DNA from: an uncultured Vicinamibacterales bacterium | GTDB taxonomy: Bacteria > Acidobacteriota > Vicinamibacteria > Vicinamibacterales > UBA8438 | Assembly (NCBI GenBank): GCA_958295905.1 | Contig: OY282382.1 | Coordinates: 992,001-1,056,000, forward strand | Reading direction: 5' to 3' | Length of the DNA stretch: 64,000 bases | Shown here: positions 4,713 through 60,221 of the stretch, in pieces | How positions within the stretch are numbered: the first letter of the stretch is position 1 | Layout: each line of letters begins with the position of its first letter | Position numbers and translations under genes: made by a program | The notes under the pieces: model-generated | What the model was told of the DNA's origin: nothing | The model's database searches: none | What the model saw: only the letters and a program-made list of their open reading frames with translations

Positions 4713-6356
<1,644 letters not shown>

Positions 6357-6497
6357 TGTTCGCCGTCCGACCGTGACCCGTCGGCGGGCCACTTGCATTG
6401 CTCGGCCGGCTCACGACCGCGCCGATTTGTGGTATATTTGCCTGATTCGATGGACACCTTCACGTGAGCGGATAGCGCTTTCTCGAATTTTGAGCCC

Positions 6498-7619
6498 ATG
6501 TCAATGTGGCACCACGGCAGCGAAACCCCGTATGACAAGCCAGAACCGCCGGTAAGCGACGGCTATCATCCGTTGCCGCCGGCCTTTCCCTGCGATCAGT
6601 GCGGGGAGGTTCGTCCATCAAAGGACGAACTGAGAAAACACAGATTCGAAGCCCATCCGTTGCACAGGCCGATCCTGTTTCTTCAAGGCCGCGAACTGGG
6701 CGACCACACAATTCGTGTCACGCGTCCTGTGACCGATGATGATGTCCGCCAGAATGACTGTGATCAAGCGTTCCTCAACGGGAGAGAGATCCCAGTTTCA
6801 TCCCTTTCTCGAGAGCTGGCACTAATTTCCTCGGGCGCATGCCAGCTTGAATTAATAAAGACAGGCGTTAGCGCAGTATTCAGGCTCAATTTCGACATCG
6901 CGTCAGTCGACGATCTCGATCGTGTGGAACGACGGTTTTTCGACCTCGTATGTGGACTTCACGGGAACCAGCTTAACAGCCGCGCTATCGACACCTTCAT
7001 ATCAGACACGGCCGTGTTCCCAACAGCCGCGGGCTACGTTGGCGGTATCTGTGAATATCTGTATGGACTCCAGACGAAGAGAGGCCAGCTAGACGCATCG
7101 CGGCCGTATGGGGAATATGTCAACCGATTCAACAGGTCAGTGGATGCACTCACCGCGTACGAACGGCCGCTGGCGAATACAATGGTGGCGGCAGTGGAAT
7201 TTCACTTCAATCACTTTCAGGAAGCGGCTAACCTTGTAACCGGCAACGGTCCCCTCGGCCATGCTGCCAACACCTATGCCTCCTGGGCCTTGGGCCAAGT
7301 GGCTGAATCACGGATGGACGCCGTTCCGAGCGTCGAGCTTGACGAGACGGAAATGGCGATTCTAGATGAAGTGACTGAGAAAATCGTGCGCTGGATTAAC
7401 CGTCCTCTCCAGGAGCTATCCAGATGTTTCCAGACGAAAATAGAATCCATTCTCCAAGATCATCCCGCAACGTACGACGATCTAAAGATACATATGCTAC
7501 TGGCGGAAATGTCCTTCGTCGTAGGGGACGTGGCAGATGTACGCCGGCACGCTAAGGCGCTGCATAACGTCGCCGGAATCGAGACGTGGGCTACGTCAAT
7601 GCTTTCGCGAATTCGATAA
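6498..7619 (+). CDS. C2H2 zinc-finger protein, first gene of three-gene accessory operon
   Basis: A 373-residue protein of unrecognised family. Residues 32-53 form a canonical C-x2-C-x12-H-x4-H zinc finger (CDQC ... KHRFEAH), unusual in a bacterial protein. The remaining 300 or so residues have no motif I recognise and look mainly helical towards the C-terminus. The ATG at 6498 was taken as start; a second ATG lies two codons later. It is 12 bp upstream of the coiled-coil gene and two genes upstream of an Hsp70 relative, so all three are probably co-transcribed. TATATT lies about 60 bp upstream and could be part of a promoter. Codon use is visibly less GC-biased than in the flanking fumarase, a sign of horizontal transfer. 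Confidence 0.72.
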   Translation: MSMWHHGSETPYDKPEPPVSDGYHPLPPAFPCDQCGEVRPSKDELRKHRFEAHPLHRPILFLQGRELGDHTIRVTRPVTDDDVRQNDCDQAFLNGREIPVSSLSRELALISSGACQLELIKTGVSAVFRLNFDIASVDDLDRVERRFFDLVCGLHGNQLNSRAIDTFISDTAVFPTAAGYVGGICEYLYGLQTKRGQLDASRPYGEYVNRFNRSVDALTAYERPLANTMVAAVEFHFNHFQEAANLVTGNGPLGHAANTYASWALGQVAESRMDAVPSVELDETEMAILDEVTEKIVRWINRPLQELSRCFQTKIESILQDHPATYDDLKIHMLLAEMSFVVGDVADVRRHAKALHNVAGIETWATSMLSRIR

Positions 7620-7631
7620 GGTGATCACACG

Positions 7632-8819
7632 ATGAACGCATCCAACCCCAGTGGCGACGACAACGAGAGTACTGCTGTCGACGACAGCGACCAACACGCA
7701 AACCGCGACTCCAGAACCACGGGCGCGGTTGGTGACACGGTTTCGGCGGCGGCCAACAAGGCGGTCGCACCGGATGGCGGTTCAAGGCGCGGGCGGTCTG
7801 CGAAGAAAAAACGCGTAGCGAGTGTAGCCGACCTAATAGGCGGTTGGTACGGTAATGCGAAGACAAAAATCCTCAAGGCACCGACGAAGCCACAAATGCG
7901 TGCTATGGCGACCGCATGGAAGCTGGACGAAACACAGGAACGACATTTGGTGGACTTGGCGTCTGCCGATAGGACATTAGACAAGACTCGTCAATTGTTG
8001 CTGCTCGTGGTGGGGATGCAGGAAGGAGCGATTGCGAGTACAGTGCAGAAGTTTGCCAAGCAAGTGCTTCATAATCACCCTATATTTAACACTCCTTCCT
8101 TTGCAGCCGTATTTGGGAACACACGTACGGCATCGAAGGCAGGTGGCATATCGGGCGAAATAGATGTAGCGAAACTCATTCATCTGGTGATGGCCAATGA
8201 TCTGCGGCTTTTGTTTCCCGCGAAGGAATTGGGAAGAAAGAGAAAAGGGGAACTGGAACGATGCCGGCATAACGCCGCGTGCTGCACTTTGATGTGGTTA
8301 TACCTAAGAGGTCAGATCAGTTGGGATCTGGCAATAAACTATCTGCGAGAGTATATTTGGAACCCACCGCCGGCTCGACACAAGACCGGATCGGAGATGT
8401 TGCGCGCAGTGATGGGTGCACGTGATATCGCGGCAGCGTCCGTAGCGTCTGCGTTGGTGGAAGAACAACTACGGGTGGCGCGGGCGGCTGAGAACCAAGC
8501 AACGGAGCGGGCTCAGAATGCAGATGCTAAGTTGACGGAGACGGAGACGGAGTTAGCAGAGGCCCGGGGGAGCAACGATGTCCTGCGGGGAAAGTTGGAG
8601 CGGGAGCGAAGGTTACGCGCTGAGGATGCGACGGCGTTGAAGGATGAGTATCAACAGTTGCGGGGAAGAGTTTTGCGGCGACTGCGCGAAGAAATATCAA
8701 TGCTGGAAGACGGCCTGCATGCGCTTAGGCGCGATCCGCCAAAGGTCGGTGTGATGATGGATCACGGTGAGAGGGTAGTAGACGGTTTACGACGAGAAAT
8801 GGAGCGGTTGCGGAGGTAG
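7632..8819 (+). CDS. Unknown protein with long C-terminal coiled coil
   Basis: A 395-residue protein of no recognised family. The first 60 residues are acidic and polar, probably disordered. A central region (about 65-280) contains a basic stretch (RSAKKKRVAS) and helical segments. From about 285 to the end it is a heptad-like coiled coil rich in Glu, Arg, Leu and Ala. GGTGAT eight bases before the ATG is a reasonable ribosome site, and the gene sits 12 bp after the zinc-finger gene and 6 bp before the Hsp70 gene. The coiled coil suggests oligomerisation or an adaptor role, for instance presenting a client to the Hsp70 partner; that is inference. Confidence 0.7.
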   Translation: MNASNPSGDDNESTAVDDSDQHANRDSRTTGAVGDTVSAAANKAVAPDGGSRRGRSAKKKRVASVADLIGGWYGNAKTKILKAPTKPQMRAMATAWKLDETQERHLVDLASADRTLDKTRQLLLLVVGMQEGAIASTVQKFAKQVLHNHPIFNTPSFAAVFGNTRTASKAGGISGEIDVAKLIHLVMANDLRLLFPAKELGRKRKGELERCRHNAACCTLMWLYLRGQISWDLAINYLREYIWNPPPARHKTGSEMLRAVMGARDIAAASVASALVEEQLRVARAAENQATERAQNADAKLTETETELAEARGSNDVLRGKLERERRLRAEDATALKDEYQQLRGRVLRRLREEISMLEDGLHALRRDPPKVGVMMDHGERVVDGLRREMERLRR

Positions 8820-8825
8820 TGGCAG

Positions 8826-10598
8826 ATGAAAGTTGTTGGCTTCGACTTCGGCACGACTAATAGTCTTGTTTCTATCGTCCAGGGAAGACGGGTTGTCAGT
8901 TTCCTGGACGAGGAGGAACGACCCATTCCGTCGGTGGTGTGTTACGAGGGCGGCCGAAAGATCCTGGGGCGTGAGGCGAAGCGGCGGCTTGTGCAGGCGG
9001 GCTTGGGAGTGTACGGCAACATTGTTCGGTCGCCAAAGAAGTATCTGGGGCGTGATGGCGTTACTGTGGAAGGGATCGAGCGGAGCCCGGTAGAGATGGT
9101 GGCGGACGTTGTCGGCCATGTACTGGAAGAGGCGCGGACGAGCGGAGGTTTGCGGGGACAAAATCTGGAAGGCGTTGATGGCGCTGTCGTGACGATTCCG
9201 GTGGATATGGAGGGATTGAGACGTCGCGCTCTTCGGGATGCGTTCAAACGGACCGGGCTGCGTATTGTTCAGTTCATTCACGAGCCGTTTGCGGCACTGT
9301 ACGGTTTTTTCCGAAAGAGAGGTCTGGCGGCGGCACTGAGGCGTTATGACGGCAAACTCTTGCTGGTATTTGATTGGGGTGGTGGGACGCTGGACTTGAC
9401 ATTGTGTCGGGTGAGGAACGGCACGGTTGTGCAGATCAAGAACGATGGTACCGACGAGGTCGGAGGTGATGTCTTCGACGAGACGGTGATGAACGGTCTT
9501 GAACGAGAGGTGAGGGCGACGCGAGGGCTGGATGAGGCCGTAGAAATACGTCAAGGAGCGTGGGCGCGCCTGCTTGATCGGTGTGAACGCGGCAAGATCG
9601 ATTTGTCATCTCGGCGGACGGTGGAGATTCACGTGCCGGATTTTTTCTTGGGGGGCGCGGATGAAGACTTCGGTCACACGCTGGATCGGGACGCGATGGA
9701 GGAGATCGTGGGACCTCTGCTTGAGAAGGGGTTTAAACGCATAGAGCGCATACTGGCGGCAGCGGACTATTCTTCAGAGCAGGTGGCACTTTGCTTGGCG
9801 ACCGGGGGCATGTCGAATATGCCAGCGGTGAAGCGTCGGCTGCATGAGTTGTTCGGGGCGGAGCGAGTAGAGATTCCAGACGGGACCGCTACGCTCGTCG
9901 CAGAGGGAGCGGCAGGAATTGCGGCGGATGGGGTTGGGCTAGTGTTGGCGAAGAACGTTGAGTTGCTGTTGGCGCGAGGAGCGTACCTTCCGCTGGTGAA
10001 GGCGGGGACGGTGATGCCGAAGGAGGGGGACGTTCAGCAGGAAAATTTTGATCTGTACTGCACGGATCCGCGAGACGGCACGGCAAAATTTCAGATTTGC
10101 GCGCCCGTGAGTGCGGGAGGGACGGTGAGGAGTAGCGATCCACGAGTACCGCTGGATATGGTTACGATAAGGGTGGATGCGCAGGCGCGGGCGTTTGGGG
10201 AAAGGTTGAAACTTGATGTGCGGATCGACGACGATCTGGTTCTGGGGGTGCACGCGCGTTCGCTGAATGCGGGGGACGAGGACCGGTGTGAGGTCCACGA
10301 ACTCGAGTTCGGGCTGGAGTTTCCGAGGGGTGGACGAGAGGGGGCGTTTGGGGATGGGTTGGCGGATGGAAATGGGTTGAAGGAGCGTCGCGGGGTGAAG
10401 GGCGCGATCACGATACGAGGCAATATTGCGGATCGGATGGATGATGCGCTGGTTCCGGGGGAGTTTCTCTACGCATACAATCGGTACTACTTTAGTGTGC
10501 AGCGTGATCCGCCGGAGGAGCAAGTGTACGAGAAGACGTACTACGAGCCGTGTGCGGGATGCGGGCGTGCATCGAACGATCCGGCTTGTCGGTGTTGA
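8826..10598 (+). CDS. Divergent Hsp70/DnaK-like ATPase
   Basis: A 590-residue member of the Hsp70/actin ATPase fold. GFDFGTTNS at residues 5-13 is the phosphate-1 loop. VFDWGGGTLDL near 180 is phosphate-2, and LATGGMSNMPAVKRRL near 320 corresponds to the adenosine-binding segment. EPFAALYGFF replaces the usual EPTAAALAYG. The C-terminal part does not resemble a standard DnaK substrate domain and ends in a Cys-rich tail, CAGCGRASNDPACRC, that could bind zinc. A strong GGAGGT overlapping the end of the preceding gene places the ATG at 8826. No DnaJ or GrpE is nearby, so this is not a housekeeping chaperone cluster. The last 58 bp overlap the convergent nuclease-helicase gene. Confidence 0.85.
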   Translation: MKVVGFDFGTTNSLVSIVQGRRVVSFLDEEERPIPSVVCYEGGRKILGREAKRRLVQAGLGVYGNIVRSPKKYLGRDGVTVEGIERSPVEMVADVVGHVLEEARTSGGLRGQNLEGVDGAVVTIPVDMEGLRRRALRDAFKRTGLRIVQFIHEPFAALYGFFRKRGLAAALRRYDGKLLLVFDWGGGTLDLTLCRVRNGTVVQIKNDGTDEVGGDVFDETVMNGLEREVRATRGLDEAVEIRQGAWARLLDRCERGKIDLSSRRTVEIHVPDFFLGGADEDFGHTLDRDAMEEIVGPLLEKGFKRIERILAAADYSSEQVALCLATGGMSNMPAVKRRLHELFGAERVEIPDGTATLVAEGAAGIAADGVGLVLAKNVELLLARGAYLPLVKAGTVMPKEGDVQQENFDLYCTDPRDGTAKFQICAPVSAGGTVRSSDPRVPLDMVTIRVDAQARAFGERLKLDVRIDDDLVLGVHARSLNAGDEDRCEVHELEFGLEFPRGGREGAFGDGLADGNGLKERRGVKGAITIRGNIADRMDDALVPGEFLYAYNRYYFSVQRDPPEEQVYEKTYYEPCAGCGRASNDPACRC

Positions 10599-13500
10599 AG
10601 GTAGGCCGCGGCAGTGGTGAAATCCGCCAGCTCCAGGAAGCGGCAGAAGGGGTTGGCGAGACGCATCTGCTCCGGAGTGCGGCAATCCGGCGTGGGGAGC
10701 GCCGGACTGGCGACGATCGCGGCCACGCAGCGGGCGCGCGAGGTGGCGACGTTGAGGCGGTGCAGGCTGTAGAGGAACTCCATCCCCCGCGGCGCCTCGT
10801 CGGCGGTCGAGGTGGCCATGGAGTAGATCACGATCGGCGCCTCCTGTCCCTGGAACTTGTCGACCGTGCCCACGCGCGCGCCGGTCGGCAGCGTCGCCCG
10901 CAGAACGGCGACATGCGCATTGTAGGGGGCCACGACGAGGATGTCGTCAAGCGTCAGTCGTTCCTGGACACCCTGCCCGTCGATCCAGGCGGCCCCGGCG
11001 TCGAGCAGCTCGAGAAGCAGCGCCGCGACGTATTCGGCTTCCTCGGCCGAGGCGTTCGTGTTGCCGGCATGCTCCACGGGAATGAAGCGCAGGCCGCACC
11101 CGGCCAGCGGCCCCGGCCCGACCACCGCCTGCCGGCCGAGCTCCGGGCGGGCGCGGAGCCGTCCCTCGTAGAACTGCTCCGTGGTGAACGCGCAGATGTC
11201 CGGGTGCATGCGCCACGTGTGGTCCAGGAAGACGCCGCGGGACGGGTCGACGGTCGCCGATTCGCCGAGAAGGTGGCCGAGGGCCGAGACTCCGGCGCCG
11301 GGCGGGTGGACCCCCTGCATGGGCTGATCGAGCTGGCGCGGATCGCCGAGCAGGACGAGGTTTCCCGCGGCCTGGCAAACGGCGAGCGTGTTCGCGAGGC
11401 TCATCTGTCCGGCCTCGTCGATGACGAGCACATCCACTTGGCCGGCCATCTCCGCGCGCGCCCACAGCCACGCGGTGCCCCCGGCGAGGTTGGCGTCGCC
11501 CGTGGCCAGGGCCTCGGCCACCTCCTCGTTGGAAGCGGTTTGGACGATCCGCTCGTCGGGGCAGCCGTCGCCGTCGTTCGCCTTCTGGATCCCGCGCACG
11601 TCGACCGCCGCTTGCCGCGCTGGCCTGCCGCCCGACCCATGTCCGGCGCGTCTACCGGTCCGGCCGTTCTCGACCGGCGGGCTGTCGGCCGAGTCGCACA
11701 CGGCGGCGAGCAGGTTGGAGATCACCTTGTGGCTGTTGGCGGTCACCCCGACCCGCTTCCCGCCGGCGAGCAGGTCGAGGATCATCCGGGCTCCGGTCCG
11801 GGTCTTGCCGCTGCCCGGCGGCCCCTGCACGGGGAGCACCGAGCGGTCGAGCCGCGGGGCGATCCGCAGGACGGCGGCCCGCGGAGCTTCGTCCTGGGCA
11901 ACGAGGCCTTCCCGGGCGGCGAAGCTCGACGTGTTCGGTAGAGACGCCGGGGTTCCGATGCGCGGCGGGACGCGTCTGAGCAGGTCGAACGCCGCCCGCC
12001 GCGGGCTGTCCGCCGCGAAGCCGCCCGACACGACCGCTTCTGCGAGCCGGGCGAGACTCTCCCGCAACACCTTGTTCTGGACGGCGTCGAGCGGCACCAG
12101 CGCCGCCGGGTGCGGCACGGGAGAGCTGCGCCCGCGCTTCAGGTCGATCGTGCCGGCGGTTTCGTCCAGCGCGAACACCGTCCCGCAGAATCCCCGCTTG
12201 AGTTCATCGGATTCGGCGGTGGCGGGGTTCTTCGGCGAGTCTCCGACGGCGATCTCGTGCGGCTGCTCGGGGAAGCGGTAGCGGTGGACGACGGACCTCT
12301 TCACCTGCTCGACCTCACTGTCGTAGGTCAGCACGCCGAGCGTGGCCCGGCTCTCGACGTGCTCCTCCTCGGTGAAGCCGCACCGGTGGAAGAACTCCCA
12401 CCACATGGACTTGTCCTCGCGCCGGTGAAACTCCAACAGGTGCGCCAGCAGCCGCCGCGCCCGCTGTTCGTCGTCCAGCTCGGCGTCGTCGACCGGCAGC
12501 CCGGCGGTGAGCGCCTCGAACAGTGCCGCGGTCTCGACCGCCGGTTCCTGCTCCCGGTCGCGTTCCTCGTCCCGGAGCGCGGGCCGCGGTACCGGCTGTC
12601 CGGTGAGAGCCGGCAGATCGCCCCGGCGTTCTTCCAGCCACGCGGCGAGGCGCAGCGTCGAGAGACAGTCGTCCCGGTTGTAGCCCTCGATCTCGGTCCG
12701 CAGCGGCGGCGGGACCCCGGCCGCGGCGCCCGACTCGAGCCGCACCTCGAACTGAATGAGCGCCCGCGTCGCCGTGGTCAGGTCCACCGCGCGGGCGAAG
12801 CCGTAGAACGGCTCCAGCCTCTTGATCGAGTAGCTCTCGACCGAGGCGCGCAACCCCTGCCGGACCACGCGGTGGAGGTCGACGAACACGCGGCCGCGCA
12901 GAAGCCGGTCGACCTCGTCCCCGCGGGTGGCGTAACGGCTCATCAGGCGCTTGACGGCGGTGGTCTCGTAGGCGCCGTAGTGGTAGACGTGGAAGCCGGG
13001 ATGCTGTTCCCAGCGCGCCATGACGTGGTCGATGAAGCGCTCGAACGCGCGCTTCTCGCTCGCCGGGTCGAGCGCCCACGACGCGTTGTGGTTGCCGTCG
13101 CGGTCCGCGACGCCGAACAGGTACTCGAGCCCGCCGTCCGCTGCGAAGGCGTCCCCTTCGAGGTCGAAGAACATGTCGCCGGCCGACGGCTCGGGCAGCG
13201 CCGCAAGCCCCCGGTCGGGCTCGACCGGCGTGACGAGCTCGTGGATGCGGCGGCCCTCGCGCCGCGCTTGGTCCTGCACCCGCGCCTGCTCGCGGATGCG
13301 GGCCAGCGCGGCCCCGCCGATTCCGTCGGGCCGGGGAGAGAGCGGCAGGCGTAGCGCGCCCAGCGCCGCCATCGTCGTCACCTCCCGTTCGACCAGCCGG
13401 CCCCGCTGGCCGCGGGTGATGCCGGCGACCAGCGAGAGGTGGTCGTCGGCGCGGCGGCGCGCCGCGCAGGACTGCCGCCACTCGCAGATGCCGCAGTGCT

Positions 13501-14164
13501 CGACCGGCTCCGGGTAGGTCTCCGGCGGGGAGGCGGCGTGCGCCTCGAACCGCCGCCGGACGGCGCGGTAGTACGCCGCGTACTCCGCAACCCGGAAGCT
13601 CGCCGGGTTCTGGCTGCCGTCCCCGCCGAGCGCAAGATGAGTCCGCTCGGGTTCCATGCCTTGCGCCTGCGCCAGCAGGTCCGAGTACAGAAGAAGCTGC
13701 AGCAGCGCCTCGCCCTTCGCCCGGCGGGCCAGCTTCGCATCGAGCACCTCGTAGGACCATCCGCCCAGCGCGCTCGGCCGGTCTACTCGGAGCAGGAAGT
13801 CGGGATGGCCGCTCCACCGCCCGCCGTCGTCCTCAAGGCGCCCCTGGTAGATCACGTCGGTCCCGCGGCTCATGGCTTCCCGCGTGCGCGTGGCGGTCGC
13901 CGCGGCGTCCCGGTGCGGGAACGGCATGTCGGATGGCACGATCGTCTCGACGAGGCGCCCGTCGGCCGCGAAGCGATCCAGGAGACCCCGCTCATGCTCG
14001 ATGCCGCGCTGTCGCAGCGCCTCGGCGCGTGGGTCGTCGTACGGTGGCGGCGGATCGACTTCCCCGAATGCCACGGCGCGGCGCAGGCTCGTGAGGTGGG
14101 TGCAGGCGAGATGGCGGCTGAGGTCGGTGGCCGAGAACGAGAGCCGGCCGTTGGCGAGGCGCAT
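10541..14164 (-). CDS. TM0106-type RecB nuclease / RNase H-like / SF1 helicase fusion
   Basis: About 1207 residues. Near the N-terminus, residues 85-190 form a RecB-like PD-(D/E)XK nuclease (GHPDFLL, YEVLDAKLA, QLLLYSDLL), followed by a cysteine cluster CGICEWRQSC that may bind an Fe-S centre. A DEDD-type RNase H-like domain follows (FFDLEGDAF; YNRDDCLSTL). The last 450 residues are an SF1 DNA2/NAM7-type helicase: Walker A QGPPGSGKT near 780, DEAGQM near 915, LLGDPRQL, KFQGQEA and a VATSRAR motif. The gene is intact. ATG at 14164 matches family starts (MRL..GRL); ATG at 14182 is an alternative. It converges on the Hsp70 gene with a 58-bp overlap. Likely DNA or RNA processing, possibly defence. 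Confidence 0.9.
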   Translation of the reverse strand: MRLANGRLSFSATDLSRHLACTHLTSLRRAVAFGEVDPPPPYDDPRAEALRQRGIEHERGLLDRFAADGRLVETIVPSDMPFPHRDAAATATRTREAMSRGTDVIYQGRLEDDGGRWSGHPDFLLRVDRPSALGGWSYEVLDAKLARRAKGEALLQLLLYSDLLAQAQGMEPERTHLALGGDGSQNPASFRVAEYAAYYRAVRRRFEAHAASPPETYPEPVEHCGICEWRQSCAARRRADDHLSLVAGITRGQRGRLVEREVTTMAALGALRLPLSPRPDGIGGAALARIREQARVQDQARREGRRIHELVTPVEPDRGLAALPEPSAGDMFFDLEGDAFAADGGLEYLFGVADRDGNHNASWALDPASEKRAFERFIDHVMARWEQHPGFHVYHYGAYETTAVKRLMSRYATRGDEVDRLLRGRVFVDLHRVVRQGLRASVESYSIKRLEPFYGFARAVDLTTATRALIQFEVRLESGAAAGVPPPLRTEIEGYNRDDCLSTLRLAAWLEERRGDLPALTGQPVPRPALRDEERDREQEPAVETAALFEALTAGLPVDDAELDDEQRARRLLAHLLEFHRREDKSMWWEFFHRCGFTEEEHVESRATLGVLTYDSEVEQVKRSVVHRYRFPEQPHEIAVGDSPKNPATAESDELKRGFCGTVFALDETAGTIDLKRGRSSPVPHPAALVPLDAVQNKVLRESLARLAEAVVSGGFAADSPRRAAFDLLRRVPPRIGTPASLPNTSSFAAREGLVAQDEAPRAAVLRIAPRLDRSVLPVQGPPGSGKTRTGARMILDLLAGGKRVGVTANSHKVISNLLAAVCDSADSPPVENGRTGRRAGHGSGGRPARQAAVDVRGIQKANDGDGCPDERIVQTASNEEVAEALATGDANLAGGTAWLWARAEMAGQVDVLVIDEAGQMSLANTLAVCQAAGNLVLLGDPRQLDQPMQGVHPPGAGVSALGHLLGESATVDPSRGVFLDHTWRMHPDICAFTTEQFYEGRLRARPELGRQAVVGPGPLAGCGLRFIPVEHAGNTNASAEEAEYVAALLLELLDAGAAWIDGQGVQERLTLDDILVVAPYNAHVAVLRATLPTGARVGTVDKFQGQEAPIVIYSMATSTADEAPRGMEFLYSLHRLNVATSRARCVAAIVASPALPTPDCRTPEQMRLANPFCRFLELADFTTAAAYLQHRQAGSFDARPHPAHGS

Positions 14165-14217
14165 GGAGCGGGACGATAGCATGAAGCTGCCGCGGCCCGC
14201 CGGTCGTCTCGAACGGG

Positions 14218-14329
14218 GCAGGCACGCCGTCGCGGCGACGGCCGACGGCTACTCCCCGCCGGGCGGTTCGTTGCGTACAGGCGAAGCTAGAGCGCAGGCA
14301 CGCCGTCGCGGCGACGGCCGACGGCTACT
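14218..14329 (+). repeat. Direct repeat pair, 36 bp, period 76 bp
   Basis: A 36-bp sequence containing CACGCCGTCGCGGCGACGGC occurs at 14218-14253 and again, identically, at 14294-14329 in the spacer between the nuclease-helicase and the nucleotidyltransferase operon. The intervening 40 bp are not repeated. It belongs to a set of similar pairs in this window with a period near 74 bp. Confidence 0.9.
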
Positions 14330-14413
14330 GAACCCGCGGCCACGCGACCCACGCCGCGGCCGGAGCATGGGGCGGCAACCACACGTGCGACACTCTAGAC
14401 AGTCTCAACCCGG

Positions 14414-14932
14414 GTGGACATGCGAGCGACTGAATCGAAACAAGCGGACGCCGGCGTTCTCGCGAGGACCGCGGCGGCAAAGCTCAGTGAACTGGCTGCC
14501 GAAGCCCAAGCCGGCTGGGACGAGACGACCCTCGAGCGGCTCATCGTCAAGGGCCTCACCCGCTACTACCACGGCATCGACGACGTCGCGCGCAGGGTGC
14601 TCGCCGCGGCGGAGCCGCCGCTCACCGCCACCGTCTGGGACGCCGTGATCGCGGCTACCGTTGAGCACGCGTGCACGACGCACGGCGTAGACGTGCCCGC
14701 GTGGACCCAGGCCCCCGAGCGCTTTCTGAAACGGCCCTGGGTCTACCGGCGCGGACCCATCGAGCGAGGCACGGCGCTGGCCAATGCGCCGGCCGCCTTC
14801 ATCCGCCACAATACGTTCATCGAACCGCGAAACCTTGACGACCGGGGAGGAGAGCGCCATGTCTGGGCCCCTCACGAGGGCGCGGCTCCTCGAGCTGTTC
14901 GACCGCCTGAACGAGAAGCTGAAGCAGGCTGA
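14414..14932 (+). CDS. Unknown protein upstream of DUF6036-type nucleotidyltransferase
   Basis: A 172-residue protein with no catalytic motif I recognise. It is helical at the N-terminus and has a conserved-looking segment around WTQAPERFLKRPW and AAFIRHNTFIEPRNL. Similar small proteins accompany DUF6036 nucleotidyltransferase genes in other genomes. The gene overlaps the next one by 74 bp, so the pair is translationally linked. Translation can begin at GTG 14414 or ATG 14420; the second is two codons in and equally plausible. The arrangement is reminiscent of a toxin-antitoxin or regulator-enzyme pair, but which role this protein has cannot be told from the sequence. Confidence 0.65.
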   Translation: MDMRATESKQADAGVLARTAAAKLSELAAEAQAGWDETTLERLIVKGLTRYYHGIDDVARRVLAAAEPPLTATVWDAVIAATVEHACTTHGVDVPAWTQAPERFLKRPWVYRRGPIERGTALANAPAAFIRHNTFIEPRNLDDRGGERHVWAPHEGAAPRAVRPPEREAEAG

Positions 14933-15416
14933 TCAGCACGCCGAGGTGTACATCGTCGGCGGTGCGATGATGGCCCTTGCCCACGATGCCCAGCGGGTGA
15001 CCGAGGATGTCGACTCGCACATCCGCCACGGCCGCGAGACGGTCACCGAGGCGGTCGCCGAGATCGCGGACGAAGAGGGCCTGAGCAGGTACTGGCTGAA
15101 CGAGGCCGTGACCCTGCGCTACCTGCCGGCAGACCCGGACCGGGGCGAGTGGCGTGTCTACACCAACACGCACCTGACCATCGAGGGCGCCTCGACCGCG
15201 CGGATGATCGCGATGAAGCTGCACGCGGGCCGCCCCCCCGATCTGGCCGACCTCGACATCTTGCTGAAAGCGGCAGGGGTCAAGACGCGGCGGGAAGCCG
15301 AGCGGCTGCACGAGCTGACCTACGGTACCGAGCCGATGGCGGCTGAGGCCGATCTGTATCTGATCGAACACTACGTCCGCCGTCCGCCGCACCTGGACAC
15401 CGGATCGACACGATGA
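14859..15416 (+). CDS. DUF6036-type nucleotidyltransferase-like protein
   Basis: A 185-residue protein. VYIVGGAMMALAHDAQR followed by TEDVDSHI matches the GGxA...DxD pattern of minimal nucleotidyltransferases of the DUF6036 group. MIAMKLHAGRPPDLADLDILL further on is also typical (a conserved K..A.R..D..D segment). An ideal GGGGAGGAGA about 8 bp upstream fixes the ATG at 14859, well inside the 3' end of the preceding gene. It overlaps the following gene by 4 bp (ATGA). MNT-type proteins often act as antitoxins or modify partner proteins by adding nucleotides; here the partner could be either neighbour. Confidence 0.8.
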   Translation: MSGPLTRARLLELFDRLNEKLKQADQHAEVYIVGGAMMALAHDAQRVTEDVDSHIRHGRETVTEAVAEIADEEGLSRYWLNEAVTLRYLPADPDRGEWRVYTNTHLTIEGASTARMIAMKLHAGRPPDLADLDILLKAAGVKTRREAERLHELTYGTEPMAAEADLYLIEHYVRRPPHLDTGSTR

Positions 15417-15949
15417 GCGGCCACGACGCCACCGCGGCGAACCCGGCGCCGGCGAACGTGGTGGCCGGCCCACGGGAGGAACGCGCCGAGACGGTACTGC
15501 ACCGGCTCGAGGCGCACATGGCCAAGAGCAGGCTGCGCGGCCACATCTACCTGACCGGGCGCACCGTGGTCGAGTTCGCGACCCGCCAGAAGCGGACCGA
15601 CAGGCCGCTGGAACGAAATGTCGGGCCGGCTCCGGTCAGACGCGCTCTCGCGGAAATACTGCGCGGGGAAGAAGAGCCGGAGCGCTGGCTGACGCGCCTG
15701 CGCGCCAGAGCGGCCGGGCAAGCGCCGGCGCCGGCGCTGTGGAACAGCCCGGCCCTGGTGGTGACGGGCGCCATGGCCAGCCGGGCGCTGTGCGCAGCGC
15801 TCGAGCACGAAGCGGACTACCCGGCCGAGACCATCGACCGCCTGATGCAAGAGGCGGACATGGGCGGGAACGAGGTCGCGGCGATGTTTGAGGAAGTGAC
15901 CGGCAAGCCGCTGAGGGCGAGAGTCGGGGCGGGGGGCTTGAAGGAGTAG
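15413..15949 (+). CDS. Unknown protein, third gene of nucleotidyltransferase operon
   Basis: A 178-residue soluble protein without a recognised domain. Its start codon overlaps the nucleotidyltransferase stop codon (ATGA), which implies coupled translation and a shared function. It is rich in Ala, Arg and Glu and predicted mostly helical. A middle segment (TVVEFATRQKRTDRPLE) is polar and basic. It ends 20 bp before the 3' end of the convergent ADOP permease gene. The family is not recognised; the only functional hint is the operon. Confidence 0.6.
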   Translation: MSGHDATAANPAPANVVAGPREERAETVLHRLEAHMAKSRLRGHIYLTGRTVVEFATRQKRTDRPLERNVGPAPVRRALAEILRGEEEPERWLTRLRARAAGQAPAPALWNSPALVVTGAMASRALCAALEHEADYPAETIDRLMQEADMGGNEVAAMFEEVTGKPLRARVGAGGLKE

Positions 15950-15968
15950 AACCCATGGCGCGTCCATG

Positions 15969-18485
15969 CTAATCGCAACGGATCGCCGTCACCGGATCGA
16001 CGCCGGCGGCCCGTCGTGCGGGCAGGTAGCCGGCGGGCAGGCTGGCGGCCAGCGTCACGACGACGGCCGACAGCATGGTCGCCGGGTCGTGGCCGGCGAG
16101 CTCGAACAGTTGGCTTTCGACGAGGCGATTGAGGGCCGACGCGGCCGCTAGTCCGACGGCCAATCCGAGTCCGACGGTCGTCAGGACTTCCTTCATGACA
16201 GAACCCAGCACGTCGCGCCGGGTGGCTCCGAGCGCCATTCGGATCCCGATCTCCTTCAGGCGTCGCACGACATTGTGCGACGTCAGGCCGAAGAGCCCCA
16301 CCATCGCGGTCAGAAGCGCCAGGGCGCCGAACGCGCTGGAGACAACGGCCATTCCCCTCTCGCTGCTCAGGTGATTGGCGCCGATGCGGTCCACAAGCGT
16401 CGTGACGTTTCCGAGGGGAAGTTGTGGATCGATCTCCCGCATTGCGCTTTCTACGGCGGAGACCGCGGCGCGGGGCGGTCCCGTGGTCCGGACGAGGACG
16501 CTTCGCGCGGGCCGGGACAGTTGAGTCGCCGGCAGGTAGAACGTGGGCGGGGCGGCGTCGCGGATGGTGTTGACTTTGGCGTCGCCCACGACTCCGATGA
16601 CCTGGACCTCACGGGGCCCGCCGCGGAAGCGCTGACCGATGGGGCTGCCGCGAAAGAAGGCGTTCGCGAAAGCTTGGTTCACCAAGGCCACCGGCTGGGA
16701 GCCGGGCGTGTCGTCCGGGGAGAACCCGCGCCCCGACAGAAGCGGTATCCGGAGCGTCTCGAAGAAGTCATGGTCGACGCTGAGCATGTGGGCTTCGGGG
16801 CGGTCTGTTCGACCAGCGAGCTCTATCCGAATCCTGATCCCGCCGCCGTCGAGAAGAGTTCCGCCGATGGTCGCCGAGCTCACGGAGCGGATGCCGGGCA
16901 TACTCGACAGCCGATCGTTCATGCGGTGATAGAGAGACGCCGCCTGCGGACCGTCGTACCCGCTCAACTCGGGCCGCAACGTGAACAACAGGACGTTGGC
17001 GGGGTCGAAGCCGAGGTAGGTCTGTTGGAGATTCGACAGTGTTCGCAGGAACAGACCGGCGCCCACCAGGAGAAAGACGGTCAGGGCGACCTGGACGGCG
17101 ATGAGCGAACGGCCGAGCCGCTTGTGCGAACTCGACCACGTGCCCGCGTCCCGTTTGGCGGGGGGGGCGGAGGCAAGACGCGTGGCATGAAGAGCCGGGC
17201 CCGCGCCGAACAGAAGTGCGGCGATGAAGATCAGCAGCGCGGCGAACACGAGGACCGGCGGAGTGAGGATGGTGGCGTCGGCCGGCAACCGCAGCGGCAG
17301 GCTGGTGGACCAGAGGGACAACCACACGGTGGCGAGGAGGCCGACGGCGCCGCCGATACCGGCCAGGACGAGGCTCTCGACCAGCAATTGCGCTGTCAGG
17401 CGGGTACGTGACGCCCCGAGGGCGGCGCGGACGGCGAACTCCCGTTGACGCATCGCGCCGCGGGACAGGAGGAGAGTGGCGACGTTGACGCACACGATAA
17501 GGAGAACGGCGCCGAGCATGCCGGCCACGATGGCGATCCGGGTGATCGTGTGCCGGGATACGTCGGAAACGCCGTGTCGGGCCGAGACAACATGCAACCG
17601 CGGCGGCGGAAGGGGCGGTGACCTGACGGTGGGCGCTTGCGCCGCAGGTCGCGCCGCCTGTCGAAAGGCGAGGTCGAGCTTGGCCTCCACCGTCTCGCGG
17701 CGAACGGCGGGCTTCAAACGCGCCATGACCGCCAGCCACCAAGTGGATGGACTGCGCAGCAGTGAGGCGGGGCCGCGGAGGCGGGGTTCGATGCCGAGTG
17801 GAATGGAGACGTCGGGCGCGTCGGGCAGGCCGCGCGCCATGAAGTCGGGAAGGTCCGCCGGGGAAACGCCGACGATGGTGAACGGCATGCCGTTGATCCT
17901 GATCGTCCCGCCTACGACGGAGCCGTCCGTTCCGTACCGCCGAACCCGGTACTGGTGGCTGATCACCGCGACCGGGTCCGCCGAGTCGTCATCGTCATGG
18001 GGCCTGATCATCCGACCCTCGTCGGCTTCCACCCCCAACGAGGGGTAGAAGTTGCCGGACACGAACTGCCCGGTGACGAATTCCGCCCGCCCGTCGGCGA
18101 ATACGTTCAACGGACCGGATGGAGCGAATGCGAAGAGATCGAACGACGACCGGCCGGCGTGCCGAAGCTGTTCGACGATATCGAAGGGGAAGGTGTGTCC
18201 GCCGCGGCTTACGTCGCCGCCGGCGATGTGGGCGTAGTGGTACGACGCGCGCCGTTCGTTGGGGGGGGCGCCGGACCAGCGCAGAGTCACCAGTTCATCG
18301 GGGTTGGCGACCGGCGGGTGGCCGAGGGCGTAGTGGTAGAAGACGGCGAACAGGGCCGTACTCGATCCGATGCCGAGCGCGAGGGAGAGAATTGCGGCGG
18401 CGGTCCACGCTCTGGTGCTGCGCAGGGTGCGAAGAGCGTGGCGGGCGTCCCGCCGGACTGCTTCCAGCGGGCCGAACCTGAGCAT
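15969..18485 (-). CDS. ADOP-type ABC transporter permease (FtsX/MacB fold)
   Basis: An 838-residue permease of the acidobacterial duplicated orphan permease type. TM1 near residues 30-50 is followed by a MacB_PCD periplasmic domain, three TMs (FtsX core) near 370-490, a second periplasmic domain, and three C-terminal TMs. SRGAMRQREFAVRAALGASR and LKEIGIRMALGATRRDV are the two FtsX core signatures, one per half. No ATPase is adjacent on this strand, consistent with the orphan arrangement. ATG at 18485 follows AGGAAGGAAGG. An in-frame ATG at 18575 would add 30 residues. Probably an efflux or lipoprotein-handling permease; the substrate is unknown. Confidence 0.88.
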   Translation of the reverse strand: MLRFGPLEAVRRDARHALRTLRSTRAWTAAAILSLALGIGSSTALFAVFYHYALGHPPVANPDELVTLRWSGAPPNERRASYHYAHIAGGDVSRGGHTFPFDIVEQLRHAGRSSFDLFAFAPSGPLNVFADGRAEFVTGQFVSGNFYPSLGVEADEGRMIRPHDDDDSADPVAVISHQYRVRRYGTDGSVVGGTIRINGMPFTIVGVSPADLPDFMARGLPDAPDVSIPLGIEPRLRGPASLLRSPSTWWLAVMARLKPAVRRETVEAKLDLAFRQAARPAAQAPTVRSPPLPPPRLHVVSARHGVSDVSRHTITRIAIVAGMLGAVLLIVCVNVATLLLSRGAMRQREFAVRAALGASRTRLTAQLLVESLVLAGIGGAVGLLATVWLSLWSTSLPLRLPADATILTPPVLVFAALLIFIAALLFGAGPALHATRLASAPPAKRDAGTWSSSHKRLGRSLIAVQVALTVFLLVGAGLFLRTLSNLQQTYLGFDPANVLLFTLRPELSGYDGPQAASLYHRMNDRLSSMPGIRSVSSATIGGTLLDGGGIRIRIELAGRTDRPEAHMLSVDHDFFETLRIPLLSGRGFSPDDTPGSQPVALVNQAFANAFFRGSPIGQRFRGGPREVQVIGVVGDAKVNTIRDAAPPTFYLPATQLSRPARSVLVRTTGPPRAAVSAVESAMREIDPQLPLGNVTTLVDRIGANHLSSERGMAVVSSAFGALALLTAMVGLFGLTSHNVVRRLKEIGIRMALGATRRDVLGSVMKEVLTTVGLGLAVGLAAASALNRLVESQLFELAGHDPATMLSAVVVTLAASLPAGYLPARRAAGVDPVTAIRCD

Positions 18486-19169
18486 GGGTTTTCCGCCTTC
18501 CTTCCTGAGGCGGCGAGCCTCGTTGGGATCACTCCGCCGCCGCGTGGATGACGTCGTTGCTCGTCCGCATGCCAACCCTCCTGTCCGGCGCCGGGCCGGT
18601 GCGTGGGTCCCGCCGTCCCCGCCGGCCGGGGGATTTTCGACGGTTCACTCTCCAAGAGGGTCTTGAAGGTCGTAAGCTTACCAGGTTTCTCGATTTTTTG
18701 GATCGTGCCGGCGGGTCTCGGGCAGGGGCATCCCACGCCGACTGCGCGTGACGTCTCGCCCCCGAGTCGAGGGGTCGCCACCGTCTTGCCGACCGGCCGC
18801 CGCCGCGTGAGACCCACGATTCCGCACGTCCGGAGCCCCGGGACCCGCCACGATGCCGCCTGCGCACGGCGGCGGCGGAGCGTGGGATGGTCCTGGGGTC
18901 TCGGGAGTCCTGGTAAGAGGGGGCGCTCGACGATCGGACGCGACAGGGCGGCGTGCTCGATGCAGGCGCACGGCTGCGTTCGCCGGGAAAGATGCCGTCG
19001 GTGCGCGGCGTCGGCGTGCGGGCGGGTGGTCCTTGAGGTCGCGGAGCCGCACGACGGTCGTACATCGTAGTCCGTTCGAGATCGAGATCGGCGTGGCCGC
19101 GGGTTTGGGCGCCGCAGGCCAACGGTGCTATCGTGAGCCGTTCCTCACCGGTTCCGCACGAGACGTGAC
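18486..19169. other. Intergenic region between divergent permease genes
   Basis: Roughly 680 bp separating the ADOP gene from the divergent ABC operon. Both must be promoted from here. It holds several GC-driven open frames on both strands, but none has a family match, convincing start or conserved-looking product. A short AT-rich run, TTTCTCGATTTTTTGGAT, around 18685-18703 may mark a promoter. No RNA gene or repeat found elsewhere in the window was recognised. Confidence 0.5.
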
Positions 19170-22792: not shown

Positions 22793-23920
22793 CTACTTGG
22801 GCTGCGAAGCCGCCGACCCGCCCGCCGCGAGTTCGAGGAGTGAACGGGCGCGGTCCGGGTTCCGCGATTTCGAGCGCGTGCCCGTCATCGTCTTGGTCTG
22901 CCGCTGCCTGCCGCCGTCGCCGGGAAGCGGATCGGCGTCACCGGCGGGCCACAGGATGCCCGGACGCGGCACGCGGTAGTAGTTGGACGGGGCCTTCGGA
23001 TCGGCGGCGGCCCTCGCCGTCTCCCGCGGATCGCGAACGAAACGGCCGAGAGCCGCTTCGCAGTAGTCCTCCAGAAGCTCGATGCAGACCCAGCGCCGGC
23101 CGATGCGTTCGCAGACCTCGCCGGTGACACAGCTTCCGGCGAAGGGATCGACCACCAGGTCGCCGGGTTCCGTGAGCATGCGGACGAAGAACTCCGGCAA
23201 CTCCGCCGGATACCGGGCCGGGTGCGGCTTCAAGCCTCTCTGCCCGCAGTAGCGCAAGTAGAAGCTGTTGCTCTCGGTGTTCGGAATGGCGAGAAGGTTC
23301 GGCGGAATCGCGGCGCCGTTGTCGACGCCGAAGTTCTCGCTGATCTCATGGCCGGACGGGCGCTTCTTGGCCCTGTAGCCCTTGGCCAGCAGGTCCTGCA
23401 TGCTCGAGCTGTAGGGCTGGAGAACGCGCCGATTGCCCGCCTTCGGCCAGGGCGTCTTGGAGAGCCACCAGACCGTATTGATGGCGTCCTTGACCCGGAT
23501 CCGCCGAACCGTGACCCATTCGGCGGGCGTCGGCAGCTTGGACGGGTTCCACCAGTAGAAGTCCTGCGCAAGGTGGAAGCCCAGGTCCTCGCACAACATG
23601 ATCAAGAGTTTGAAGTGATAGAGGTTCCTCGTCGGGTGGCCTTTGTTCCACGCGCCGCCGATATCGATGACCAGACTGCCGTTGTCCTTGATGACACGCC
23701 GGAATTCCACGGCGAAGGACTTGAACCATTCGACGTATTCATCGGCTTCGACGTTGCCGTAGTCCTTCTTTCTGACCAGCCCGAAGGGCGGGCTCGTCAT
23801 GATCAGATCGACGGACGCATCCTCACGGGCGGCCAACACGTCGATGCTGTCGCCGTGAACGATCCGCCCGAGGGACGTTTGGTGAAAGCCACGGAAATCC
23901 GCGGACCCTTTCTCGGTCAT
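22793..23920 (-). CDS. Site-specific DNA methyltransferase (N4/N6), R-M partner
   Basis: A 375-residue amino-methyltransferase. Motif IV TSPPFG comes early (about residue 43) and motif I DPFAGSCVTGEVCERIG late, the beta-class order for N4-cytosine or N6-adenine enzymes. The middle (about 110-250) holds the target-recognition region. ATG 23920 follows a TAGGAA that overlaps the stop codon of the endonuclease gene 10 bp upstream; the longer version starting at 23974 would overlap that gene heavily and adds no family residues. It pairs with the endonuclease to form a Type II-like restriction-modification unit, endonuclease first. The recognition site cannot be predicted. Confidence 0.92.
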   Translation of the reverse strand: MTEKGSADFRGFHQTSLGRIVHGDSIDVLAAREDASVDLIMTSPPFGLVRKKDYGNVEADEYVEWFKSFAVEFRRVIKDNGSLVIDIGGAWNKGHPTRNLYHFKLLIMLCEDLGFHLAQDFYWWNPSKLPTPAEWVTVRRIRVKDAINTVWWLSKTPWPKAGNRRVLQPYSSSMQDLLAKGYRAKKRPSGHEISENFGVDNGAAIPPNLLAIPNTESNSFYLRYCGQRGLKPHPARYPAELPEFFVRMLTEPGDLVVDPFAGSCVTGEVCERIGRRWVCIELLEDYCEAALGRFVRDPRETARAAADPKAPSNYYRVPRPGILWPAGDADPLPGDGGRQRQTKTMTGTRSKSRNPDRARSLLELAAGGSAASQPK

Positions 23921-23930
23921 GGCTGCATTC

Positions 23931-25304
23931 CTACAGATCGAGCTTCTTGAGATCCATGGCGTGACGAGCCTCACGGGTGAACACGTCGAGGATGGCGGTC
24001 GGGTGGGTCTCGATGCGGGCGAGGTCGCCGCCGTCCACCATGACGATGCACAAATTCGACTCGGCCATGATCGTATTGGCGTAGCGGCGGGCGTCGTCGC
24101 TGATCCGACCCGTCGACACCATGACGACAGCGTTGCTCTTCAACAAGTGCGTGAGCCCGACCTCCTTGGCAACATCGTCGAGGGACACGCGGTCGGTGTT
24201 CTTGCATTGAATCTGCCAGCGTGAGAACACCAGGCGCGCACTCTCGAAGATCACGTCGACTTCGGCCCCGCCGGTGGCTGCGCCCCGCAGGCGGGTCGCC
24301 ACGTAGGTGAGGTCGATGAGCCGCATGAGCTTGAACGCCAGGGCTTCCAGTGCCAGACCGCGGACGTGGCGATCTTCGGACACGAGCTCCTTGCGGATGT
24401 CCCGGAGCGGTTTGCGCAGCAGCGGCCGAAGATCGGCTTGCGCCTGCTGCTCCAGTTGCGCAATGAGGGGTGCGATGAACTCGACCGACAGCTTGTCGGT
24501 CGCCGTAACCCGGAAGGGCTTCGCGCCGCGCCCGGCTTCCCTCGTGCCTCGATCCAGTTCGACGTACCCCGCGTTTCGCAACGGATACAGGACCTGCTGC
24601 GGCAGATTCTTTTCGTTGAAGGTGACGCCGTAGGTCGCCGCCGCGAGTCTCTCGATGTCGTTCGAGAGATGCGGCCCGTCGCCATCCACGTTGGCAAGCG
24701 CCTTCAGATAGGCGCGTTGTTCCGGCGATAGAGTCGCCAGCGCCTCGAATTCCTCAACGCTGACGTGCAGTATCTCGTGAAGTCTGTCCAGATCGACCCG
24801 ATATCCGGAAACGAACACGCCCGCCTTTTCGAGCCAAAGGCGCAACGTGCTCATGTGCTTTCCGCCGCGCGGGACGACGATGCCTCGCTCGCCGAGCGAA
24901 CGACGGAGCGTGGTGAGGTCGATTTTCTCACCGGCGACCTGCATGTCCAGCAGGCACTGGACGAAGTTCATGCCCTGGCGGTTCTTCAGGATGTGTCTGG
25001 CGAAGGCCTCGTGGAGGGCGGTGTCGTCGTGGCGAAGATCGTAGAGGACGCGGCCGGTCTCGGTGAGGGTGGCGTCCGCCTCCTCGATCAGGCCATACGC
25101 CCGCATGGACAGTTTGGTGTTGTTGGCGAGCTTGTTCCTGTTGTCGTCGGACGTCGGATTGGCGGCGAAATAGCGGTCGCGCACGGCGGCTTCGAAACCG
25201 CTCCGCCAGTTCGAGCCGTGTTCGTGCGCCAGCGCGAGAAGAGTCGGCAGGTCGATTTGCGCCGGAGAAAACTCGCTGCCGAAGGGCAGGTCACTCTTGC
25301 GCAC
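23931..25304 (-). CDS. Restriction endonuclease, Mrr-like PD-(D/E)XK
   Basis: A 457-residue protein. The C-terminal 140 residues carry an Mrr-like nuclease fold: GLALEALAFKLMRLI, then EVDVIFE and WQIQCKNT, giving the expected E...D...QxK spacing. The catalytic Lys is in QCKN. The N-terminal two-thirds are helical and probably recognise DNA or dimerise. It starts at ATG 25304. Its stop is 10 bp before the cognate methyltransferase, so the two genes form an operon. With the endonuclease first, delayed methylation would be risky unless expression is controlled, yet no C-protein gene is seen. Confidence 0.85.
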   Translation of the reverse strand: MRKSDLPFGSEFSPAQIDLPTLLALAHEHGSNWRSGFEAAVRDRYFAANPTSDDNRNKLANNTKLSMRAYGLIEEADATLTETGRVLYDLRHDDTALHEAFARHILKNRQGMNFVQCLLDMQVAGEKIDLTTLRRSLGERGIVVPRGGKHMSTLRLWLEKAGVFVSGYRVDLDRLHEILHVSVEEFEALATLSPEQRAYLKALANVDGDGPHLSNDIERLAAATYGVTFNEKNLPQQVLYPLRNAGYVELDRGTREAGRGAKPFRVTATDKLSVEFIAPLIAQLEQQAQADLRPLLRKPLRDIRKELVSEDRHVRGLALEALAFKLMRLIDLTYVATRLRGAATGGAEVDVIFESARLVFSRWQIQCKNTDRVSLDDVAKEVGLTHLLKSNAVVMVSTGRISDDARRYANTIMAESNLCIVMVDGGDLARIETHPTAILDVFTREARHAMDLKKLDL

Positions 25305-58942: not shown

Positions 58943-60221
58943 TCAGGACCGACGACATGTGCGGAAAGCCGCGTTTGCGTTGCCGCCCAAAAGCCTGTCG
59001 AGCGTCGAAGGCCCGACTCGCCGGCTTCATGCGCGTTGCCACGGGCTATTCCCGGTAGCGCCTCGACGAGCCCGCCGCCTCCCTCGCCATCTACCTCGGG
59101 TGACTGACCACTTGGGCGAAACACGAGGCTGCCATGGCTGAATTCACCGTTTCGCCACTCTCAATCGTCAATCAAATCAAGGCCAACCTGCAGGACCGCT
59201 ACGATACCGGCTCGATCCTGAAGGAACTCCTACAGAACGCTGACGATGCCGGCGCGCGGCGCATCCGGCTCGACGCCCGGTGGGGCTGGCCCGAGGCCGA
59301 TAACCCCCTTCTCCGCGAGCCCGGCCTCCTGGTCGTCAATGACGGCAAGTTTCTCCAGAGAGACCGGCGCGGCATCCTTGCATTCGGCGAGAGCGTCAAG
59401 GCCGCCGATCATGCGGCCATCGGGAAGTTTGGCTTCGGCCAAAAGGCGGTGTTCCACCTCTGCGACGCCTTCGCCGTCCATGCGTTCGGCGACAACGAGC
59501 AAGAACCGTTCAGTCAGGTCGTGAACCCATTCCTCAACGTCGACGCCCCCGGCAATAGATCCCGTCACTGGGATACTCTCAGTGACTCCGACGTGAACAT
59601 CCTGCGCCATGCCGTGCCCGATGAGTTCGACGTTCGCGCCTTCGTCCTCTGGTTGCCCTTTCGCAGCGAAAGCCTGCAACCGGCGGAAAGGTTGGCGTTC
59701 TCAAGCCATCGGCCGTCGATTCGCGAGACGGTCGATGAACTGGCGGAGACAGAAAACCTTCAAACGCTCCTGACGATCCTTCGCCACATCAAGTCTATCG
59801 AGATCCGAAGGCAGGAACGACCGGACGCGGCACCAGCGACGTACTGCGCCGTTCACGTGCGCGAGACGGCGACGCGGCTACGCGGACCGGGGCCAGCGCT
59901 CGTTGGCGCCCAGAACTTCGGCGGGACGATAATAGACACCGGACGCAATCAACCGGCGACGTTCGTCGGCCGTGAGGCGATGAACCCGAACAACCGTCTG
60001 GCGGCCCTACAGCGCAGTACGCATTGGCCCACGACGCCCAGCGTTCTTGATTCACAGCCGAAACCCGAGAAAGGCGAGCCCCACGGAGCAGCTACACTGC
60101 TGCGAACAACTGCCAGCGCCGATCTCCGACCCGACGAACTGACGATTTCCTGGGCCGTCTTCCTGCCGATTTCCGACGACCGGCGGAGCGTGCTTCCCAT
60201 CCCCTCCACGCCGTACCGCAC

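Follow-up and report, generated by a model that had tools for sequence, protein, structure and literature searches.

A three-gene cassette encoding a C2H2 zinc-finger protein, a coiled-coil protein and a divergent Hsp70: a candidate bacterial defence system

Introduction

Hsp70-like units, termed CnuD and CnuC, are found in the CoCoNuT type IV restriction systems, where they occur as fusions with McrB/McrC-type proteins or are encoded together with them, and where the Walker A-like motif of the Hsp70-like unit is degenerate (PMC11090510). HSP70 has also been described, as have tubulin and GrpE, as part of predicted GTPase-centric conflict systems (Kaur et al. 2020, PMC7159879). Extra genes have been reported inside BREX loci: BrxU, a GmrSD-type nuclease encoded between brxC and pglX, confers phage defence by itself (PMC8565348), and ORF376 has been reported as a further insertion (PMC10799925).

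The trio of genes analysed here encodes a C2H2 zinc-finger protein (gene 1), a coiled-coil protein (gene 2) and a divergent Hsp70 (gene 3), and it resembles each of these systems in part. Like CoCoNuT, it combines an Hsp70-like unit with coiled-coil proteins in a defence context, but the ATPase residues of the trio Hsp70 are intact and McrBC adjoins a single trio locus (L077). Assignment of the trio to CoCoNuT was rejected, as no NxD McrB-type GTPase lies beside the trio in the window and the McrB at L077, the sole McrB neighbour, carries the classical NIAD (NxxD) motif. The GTPase-centric systems likewise place HSP70 in a predicted conflict system, whereas the trio has no GTPase, tubulin homologue or GrpE, its partners being a C2H2/TPR-like protein and a coiled-coil protein. 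With BrxU the trio shares the ability to lie inside a type I BREX operon, but it has no recognised nuclease and sits between pglX and pglZ. Finally, the trio Hsp70 has the nucleotide-binding domain, the ATPase residues and the beta substrate-binding region (to approximately residue 490) of the DnaK/Hsp70 family (PF00012), and differs from DnaK in its replaced J-docking residues, in a Cys-cluster region that appears to stand at the place of the lid and in its obligate non-DnaJ partners. No description of the trio was found in the open-access literature searched, and it is put forward as a candidate for an undescribed system.

The trio in the window and its island

In the window, by which is meant the whole 64,000-nucleotide stretch of DNA that was analysed, the three genes lie on one strand: gene 1 at 6498–7619 (forward strand; 373 aa), gene 2 at 7632–8819 (forward strand; 395 aa) and gene 3, which encodes the Hsp70-family ATPase, at 8826–10598 (forward strand; 590 aa). 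The gaps are 12 bp between genes 1 and 2 and 6 bp between genes 2 and 3, as the original prediction had given them. It had also been claimed that the first two genes are less GC-rich than their neighbours, which is borne out by GC fractions of 0.545 and 0.556 against 0.692 and 0.721 for the upstream and downstream flanking genes, but the Hsp70 gene (0.589) is GC-poor too. A scan for promoters and terminators gave no signal above that of shuffles. The convergent neighbour (10541–14182, reverse strand) is indeed a nuclease-helicase fusion, in which PDDEXK, RNase H-like and AAA_11/12 domains were found; its 3' end and that of the Hsp70 gene overlap by 58 bp, tail to tail, and it is treated as context and not as a core component.

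The Hsp70 gene is absent from two other genomes of the window's genus. In one of the two, homology to the window ends where the fumarase gene does, at position 6354, and starts again at 19098; between these points lie 1.36 kb in that genome and 12.7 kb in the window (6355–19097). The island is absent there, and the trio therefore belongs to a variable, apparently acquired, region that it shares with the nuclease-helicase and other genes. Among the latter is a nucleotidyltransferase/DUF6036-like gene with a partner (14784–15949), a pair that by eye is toxin–antitoxin-like. AAA ATPases and a restriction–modification (R-M) system had also been reported for the window, and these genes were recognised by eye only, the R-M pair being a DNA methyltransferase-like gene and its 457-aa neighbour (22793–25304, reverse strand). 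Further along, a sacsin-like N-terminal fragment is followed directly by a transposase-like gene (59134–61484), which by eye is a defence-type gene broken by an insertion.

Distribution and linkage of the three genes

The trio was found in the same gene order at 21 independent loci (two plasmids being counted as one), which are drawn from the Acidobacteriota, Nitrospirales, Candidatus Binatia, Gamma- and Betaproteobacteria and Actinomycetota and from five IMG/VR contigs. A chance origin is excluded because gene order and close spacing are kept across these loci. A second genome of the window's phylum encodes an Hsp70 with 62% identity and has both partners, and two conjugative plasmids of Paenarthrobacter carry an Hsp70 that is 47% identical across the whole protein, including the tail, and is likewise preceded by genes 1 and 2. 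The Hsp70 C-terminus, scanned against a collection of bacterial and archaeal genomes, yielded 13 loci, in Nitrospirales, Candidatus Binatia (two), Gammaproteobacteria, Acidobacteriota (two, one of which is the genome with the 62% identical Hsp70), Oxalobacteraceae, Arthrobacter (three), an actinobacterial assembly, Micromonospora and Mycobacterium. The order gene 1, gene 2, Hsp70 holds in all 12 of the loci that are uncut by a contig end, about half of which have 4-bp stop–start overlaps; at the thirteenth (L020) the contig edge leaves only the end of gene 2. One further Micrococcaceae genome has this cassette as well. A first scan of viral contigs with the Hsp70 C-terminus alone returned nothing; scans with gene 1 and full-length Hsp70 profiles gave five more loci, each with gene 1 upstream, a middle gene and the Hsp70, including divergent forms in which Hsp70 identity is 39–40%. 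At two of the viral-contig loci the assignment is partial, as the middle gene of L077 was assigned by position only and gene 1 of L076 is cut by the contig end.

The three genes are also rare, and where one is found the others are found with it. Searched for separately in 235 Micrococcaceae genomes, gene 1 and the Hsp70 C-terminus match the same two genomes and no others; one of these was the centre of the search, which gives a sampled frequency of about 1 in 234. A search of 297 genomes of the window's phylum returned gene 1 from that of the window alone, and the copy from the gammaproteobacterial locus (L018) has no counterpart in 50,697 phage genomes. Three short, weak matches to gene 2 in the 297 phylum genomes (E 4e-4 to 7e-4) were treated as noise. 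Gene 1 is single-copy in 11 of the 12 trio genomes searched whole, the exception being the L020 genome, in which the contig ends at the locus. The three families show correlated pairwise distances (Pearson 0.93–0.96 overall; Spearman 0.77–0.87 in the non-actinobacterial set), as would be expected for joint inheritance, although some correlation would arise from shared ancestry by itself. In distant phyla the trio is thus an obligate, patchily distributed unit. Co-occurrence in distant phyla near defence genes had been set beforehand as the test of the original prediction and was found; the genes recur together well beyond the window, and their spread is not that of vertical inheritance within one clade.

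In most actinobacterial loci (Arthrobacter, Paenarthrobacter, L026, L028 and L049) a fourth gene, of 446–461 aa as called, lies directly 3' of the Hsp70 gene; its members match no Pfam family over cut-off and no PHROG family. It was not detected in L027, in the window or in the other lineages, and the three-gene core is for this reason regarded as the minimal unit. Neither this gene nor the TPR-like domain of gene 1 nor the mobile edge of the island had figured in the original prediction. In both Paenarthrobacter plasmids gene 1 is broken by the same IS3 element, at a different point in each, and in one plasmid the element has broken the fourth gene too (8460–10851 in L006; 8397–10851 and 13767–16370 in L007).

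Features of the three proteins

Genes 1 and 2 had been described as lacking a recognised family, and no family match over cut-off was obtained for either. The AlphaFold2 model of the gene 1 product (pLDDT 83.8) comprises a C2H2 unit, with strands followed by a helix at residues 42–52, a beta domain at 59–133 and helical repeats at 137–373. The four zinc ligands (C32, C35, H48 and H53) of the finger (residues 30–53; 6585–6656, forward strand) are invariant in every copy that covers the region, and a 13-sequence profile of gene 1 matched solved C2H2 fingers in the PDB (2i13, E 2.4e-13). The hairpin and helix of the finger are visible in the model, and Pfam returned C2H2 matches for the window protein alone only below threshold. 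Judged by the profile and the model, the predicted finger is a true C2H2 unit, as had been proposed, even if the single protein falls below the Pfam cut-off. An N-terminal MGFWHTG-type motif is kept in all copies except the divergent L077 and L078, and its conservation supports the start codon. Structural matches to the repeats (residues 136–373; 6903–7616, forward strand) are mostly TPR proteins, with a best Z of 8.1, a value that common helical arrangements also reach; no Pfam TPR match was found in gene 1, and the structural matches support the description of the region as TPR-like as a fold class only.

The gene 2 product is laid out as a disordered N-terminus, a helical domain, a helix or coiled coil of about 100 residues and a conserved C-terminal motif. 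Pfam gave nothing meaningful for it and a fold search no informative structural neighbour. GrpE was considered on account of a short motif that is GrpE-like by eye, and was rejected at an hhalign probability of about 0.5% with no match to PF01025.

The gene 3 product matches PF00012 with 163.5 bits against a cut-off of 20.6 (E 8e-48), which places it in the Hsp70 superfamily; against the NCBIfam DnaK equivalog TIGR02350 it reaches 153 bits, under the cut-off of 822.55. Within the nucleotide-binding domain (8826–9926, forward strand), K71, E153, D183 and T188, which correspond to DnaK K70, E171, D194 and T199, are invariant across 21 sequences. DnaK R167 and N170 are residues on which a J-domain docks; at the R167 position the trio proteins have Q, with H or S in two copies, and at the N170 position an invariant H. 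The beta substrate-binding region is recognisable up to approximately residue 490, at which point similarity to DnaK stops, and the alpha lid appears to be replaced by a family-specific region that ends in a Cys cluster (YYxPCxxC...DPxCRC; 10539–10595, forward strand), at the place of the Hsp70 lid and tail. All 20 copies that extend to the cluster have C576 and C579, and 19 of them have C588. The original prediction spoke of an altered C-terminus and a Cys-rich tail, and that is what the alignment shows alongside a normal ATPase domain. The description of gene 3 as an Hsp70 without DnaJ, and as a poor fit to a general chaperone, is equally sustained: besides the replaced docking positions and the loss of similarity to DnaK at the lid, no HPD motif occurs in any trio protein of sets A5–A7.

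Genomic context and alternative roles

On an IMG/VR contig (L073) the trio is nested within a type I BREX operon that is complete, in the order brxA-brxB-brxC-pglX-[trio]-pglZ-brxL, with best E-values for the BREX genes all below 1e-60. The pglX stop codon is 2 bp before the ATG of gene 1, and the Hsp70 stop codon overlaps the ATG of pglZ. McrB (E 2e-71 to solved McrB) and McrC (6e-24) are encoded directly upstream of the trio at L077. The trio adjoins DISARM drmA/drmB at L027, an SNF2/HKD helicase with a type III methyltransferase in the Oxalobacteraceae (L022), a DUF4011-helicase-MTES_1575 nuclease at L018, a type I methyltransferase at L023, a gene of similar look together with a sacsin/TmtA-like gene at L024, and an Mrr-like nuclease at L025. 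Type IIG and DUF262 genes lie near the trio on the Paenarthrobacter plasmids, and the same kind of PDDEXK/RNase H/AAA nuclease-helicase stands beside it in the window and at L028. No defence neighbour was recognised at L017, L021, L026 or L049. None of the three proteins has a match in PADLOC 2.0 at E up to 1, and their only NCBIfam matches are far below cut-off. PADLOC families numbered 128, compared with 76 in a control of 78 proteins taken at chosen positions in the same genomes, and no measured enrichment of defence genes is claimed from these counts because the control drew a CRISPR locus. It is the nesting in BREX and the diversity of the partner systems that carry the argument for defence. 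The original suggestion of an undescribed defence-type system thus finds its counterpart in an obligate unit that is patchily present in distant phyla and lies inside BREX or beside McrBC, DISARM, type I and III R-M or nuclease genes. A putative role of the trio in defence is considered quite likely.

An Hsp70 fold with intact ATPase residues is also what would be expected of a stress or proteostasis cassette, in which an accessory Hsp70, served by an adaptor and a cofactor of its own, guards a specific host client against heat, oxidation or metal and spreads horizontally, and some loci do stand among housekeeping genes with no defence neighbours. The rarity and patchiness of the trio, its position within BREX and beside varied restriction genes and the loss of the J-docking surface argue against such a role, which is regarded as unlikely.

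The tight junctions at L073, which point to translational coupling inside the BREX operon, and the many different large systems that adjoin the trio would also suit a dedicated machine for the folding or assembly of large restriction complexes such as BREX, McrBC and DISARM. The partner systems are, however, mutually unrelated, and the cassette also stands alone, for example after nrdF at L049, so that an accessory of its neighbours is distinctly unlikely to be what the trio is. A function in the maintenance, transfer or establishment of plasmids and islands, suggested by the conjugative plasmids, the IMG/VR contigs and genes near L018 and L074 that by eye resemble integrases or recombinases, is very improbable given that most loci are chromosomal without transfer genes, that one is surrounded by the genes of a BREX operon and that IS3 breaks gene 1 in both plasmids, which consequently do not need it.

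Proposed mechanism

Returning to defence, it is judged moderately likely that the trio is an autonomous, mobile and undescribed module against phages or mobile elements, with the Hsp70 ATPase as its motor. In the mechanism proposed, gene 1 would act as a dedicated adaptor in place of DnaJ, a role suggested by its domain type: its finger and beta domain would recognise the nucleic acid or nucleoprotein of the invader, and its TPR-like repeats would bring in the Hsp70. The gene 2 product, again going by domain type, could act as a scaffold, its coiled coil oligomerising the complex, and might assist in the nucleotide cycle as well. The Hsp70, for which the original prediction had proposed the part of a sensor or switch, would be an ATP switch, such that hydrolysis clamps the apparently lid-less protein on a hydrophobic segment of a bound phage protein, which would then be remodelled or sequestered so that replication or assembly is blocked. 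Remodelling or sequestration is preferred over cleavage because no nuclease or toxin domain, nor any other effector domain, was recognised in any trio protein; gene 2 or the beta domain of gene 1 could still conceal an effector. Taken as a whole, this scheme of adaptor, scaffold and motor is tentative and rather doubtful. That the trio is a self-contained immune system whose sole recognisable enzyme is an Hsp70, in which a zinc-finger/TPR-like adaptor and a coiled-coil partner stand in for DnaJ and GrpE and invader nucleoprotein is disabled without a nuclease, NADase, pore or toxin, is judged possible rather than probable.

If correct, the proposal would describe immunity in which a chaperone-type ATPase, working with an adaptor other than DnaJ, takes the part that a nuclease or metabolite-depleting effector would otherwise play, and it would show how a dedicated recognition protein can programme an Hsp70. 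At about 4 kb the trio is compact, its boundaries are clear and it has invariant residues, which makes it directly testable.

Other genes near the loci

Some further genes were noted around the loci. A dynamin-type GTPase with a C-terminal PLD-like MIT_C domain is encoded directly upstream of gene 1 at L022 (3580–6498). At L023 the region 3' of the four-gene cassette (12478–16350) encodes a kinase-domain protein followed, by eye, by vWA-like and PP2C-like genes. Another Hsp70-like gene, distinct from that of the trio (27% identity), is found at L079 (5965–13108) beside a UvrD-type helicase gene and drmA, with genes that are AbiE-like by eye upstream; no zinc-finger or coiled-coil partner was detected at that locus, and it is a second, separate Hsp70 in a DISARM-like setting.
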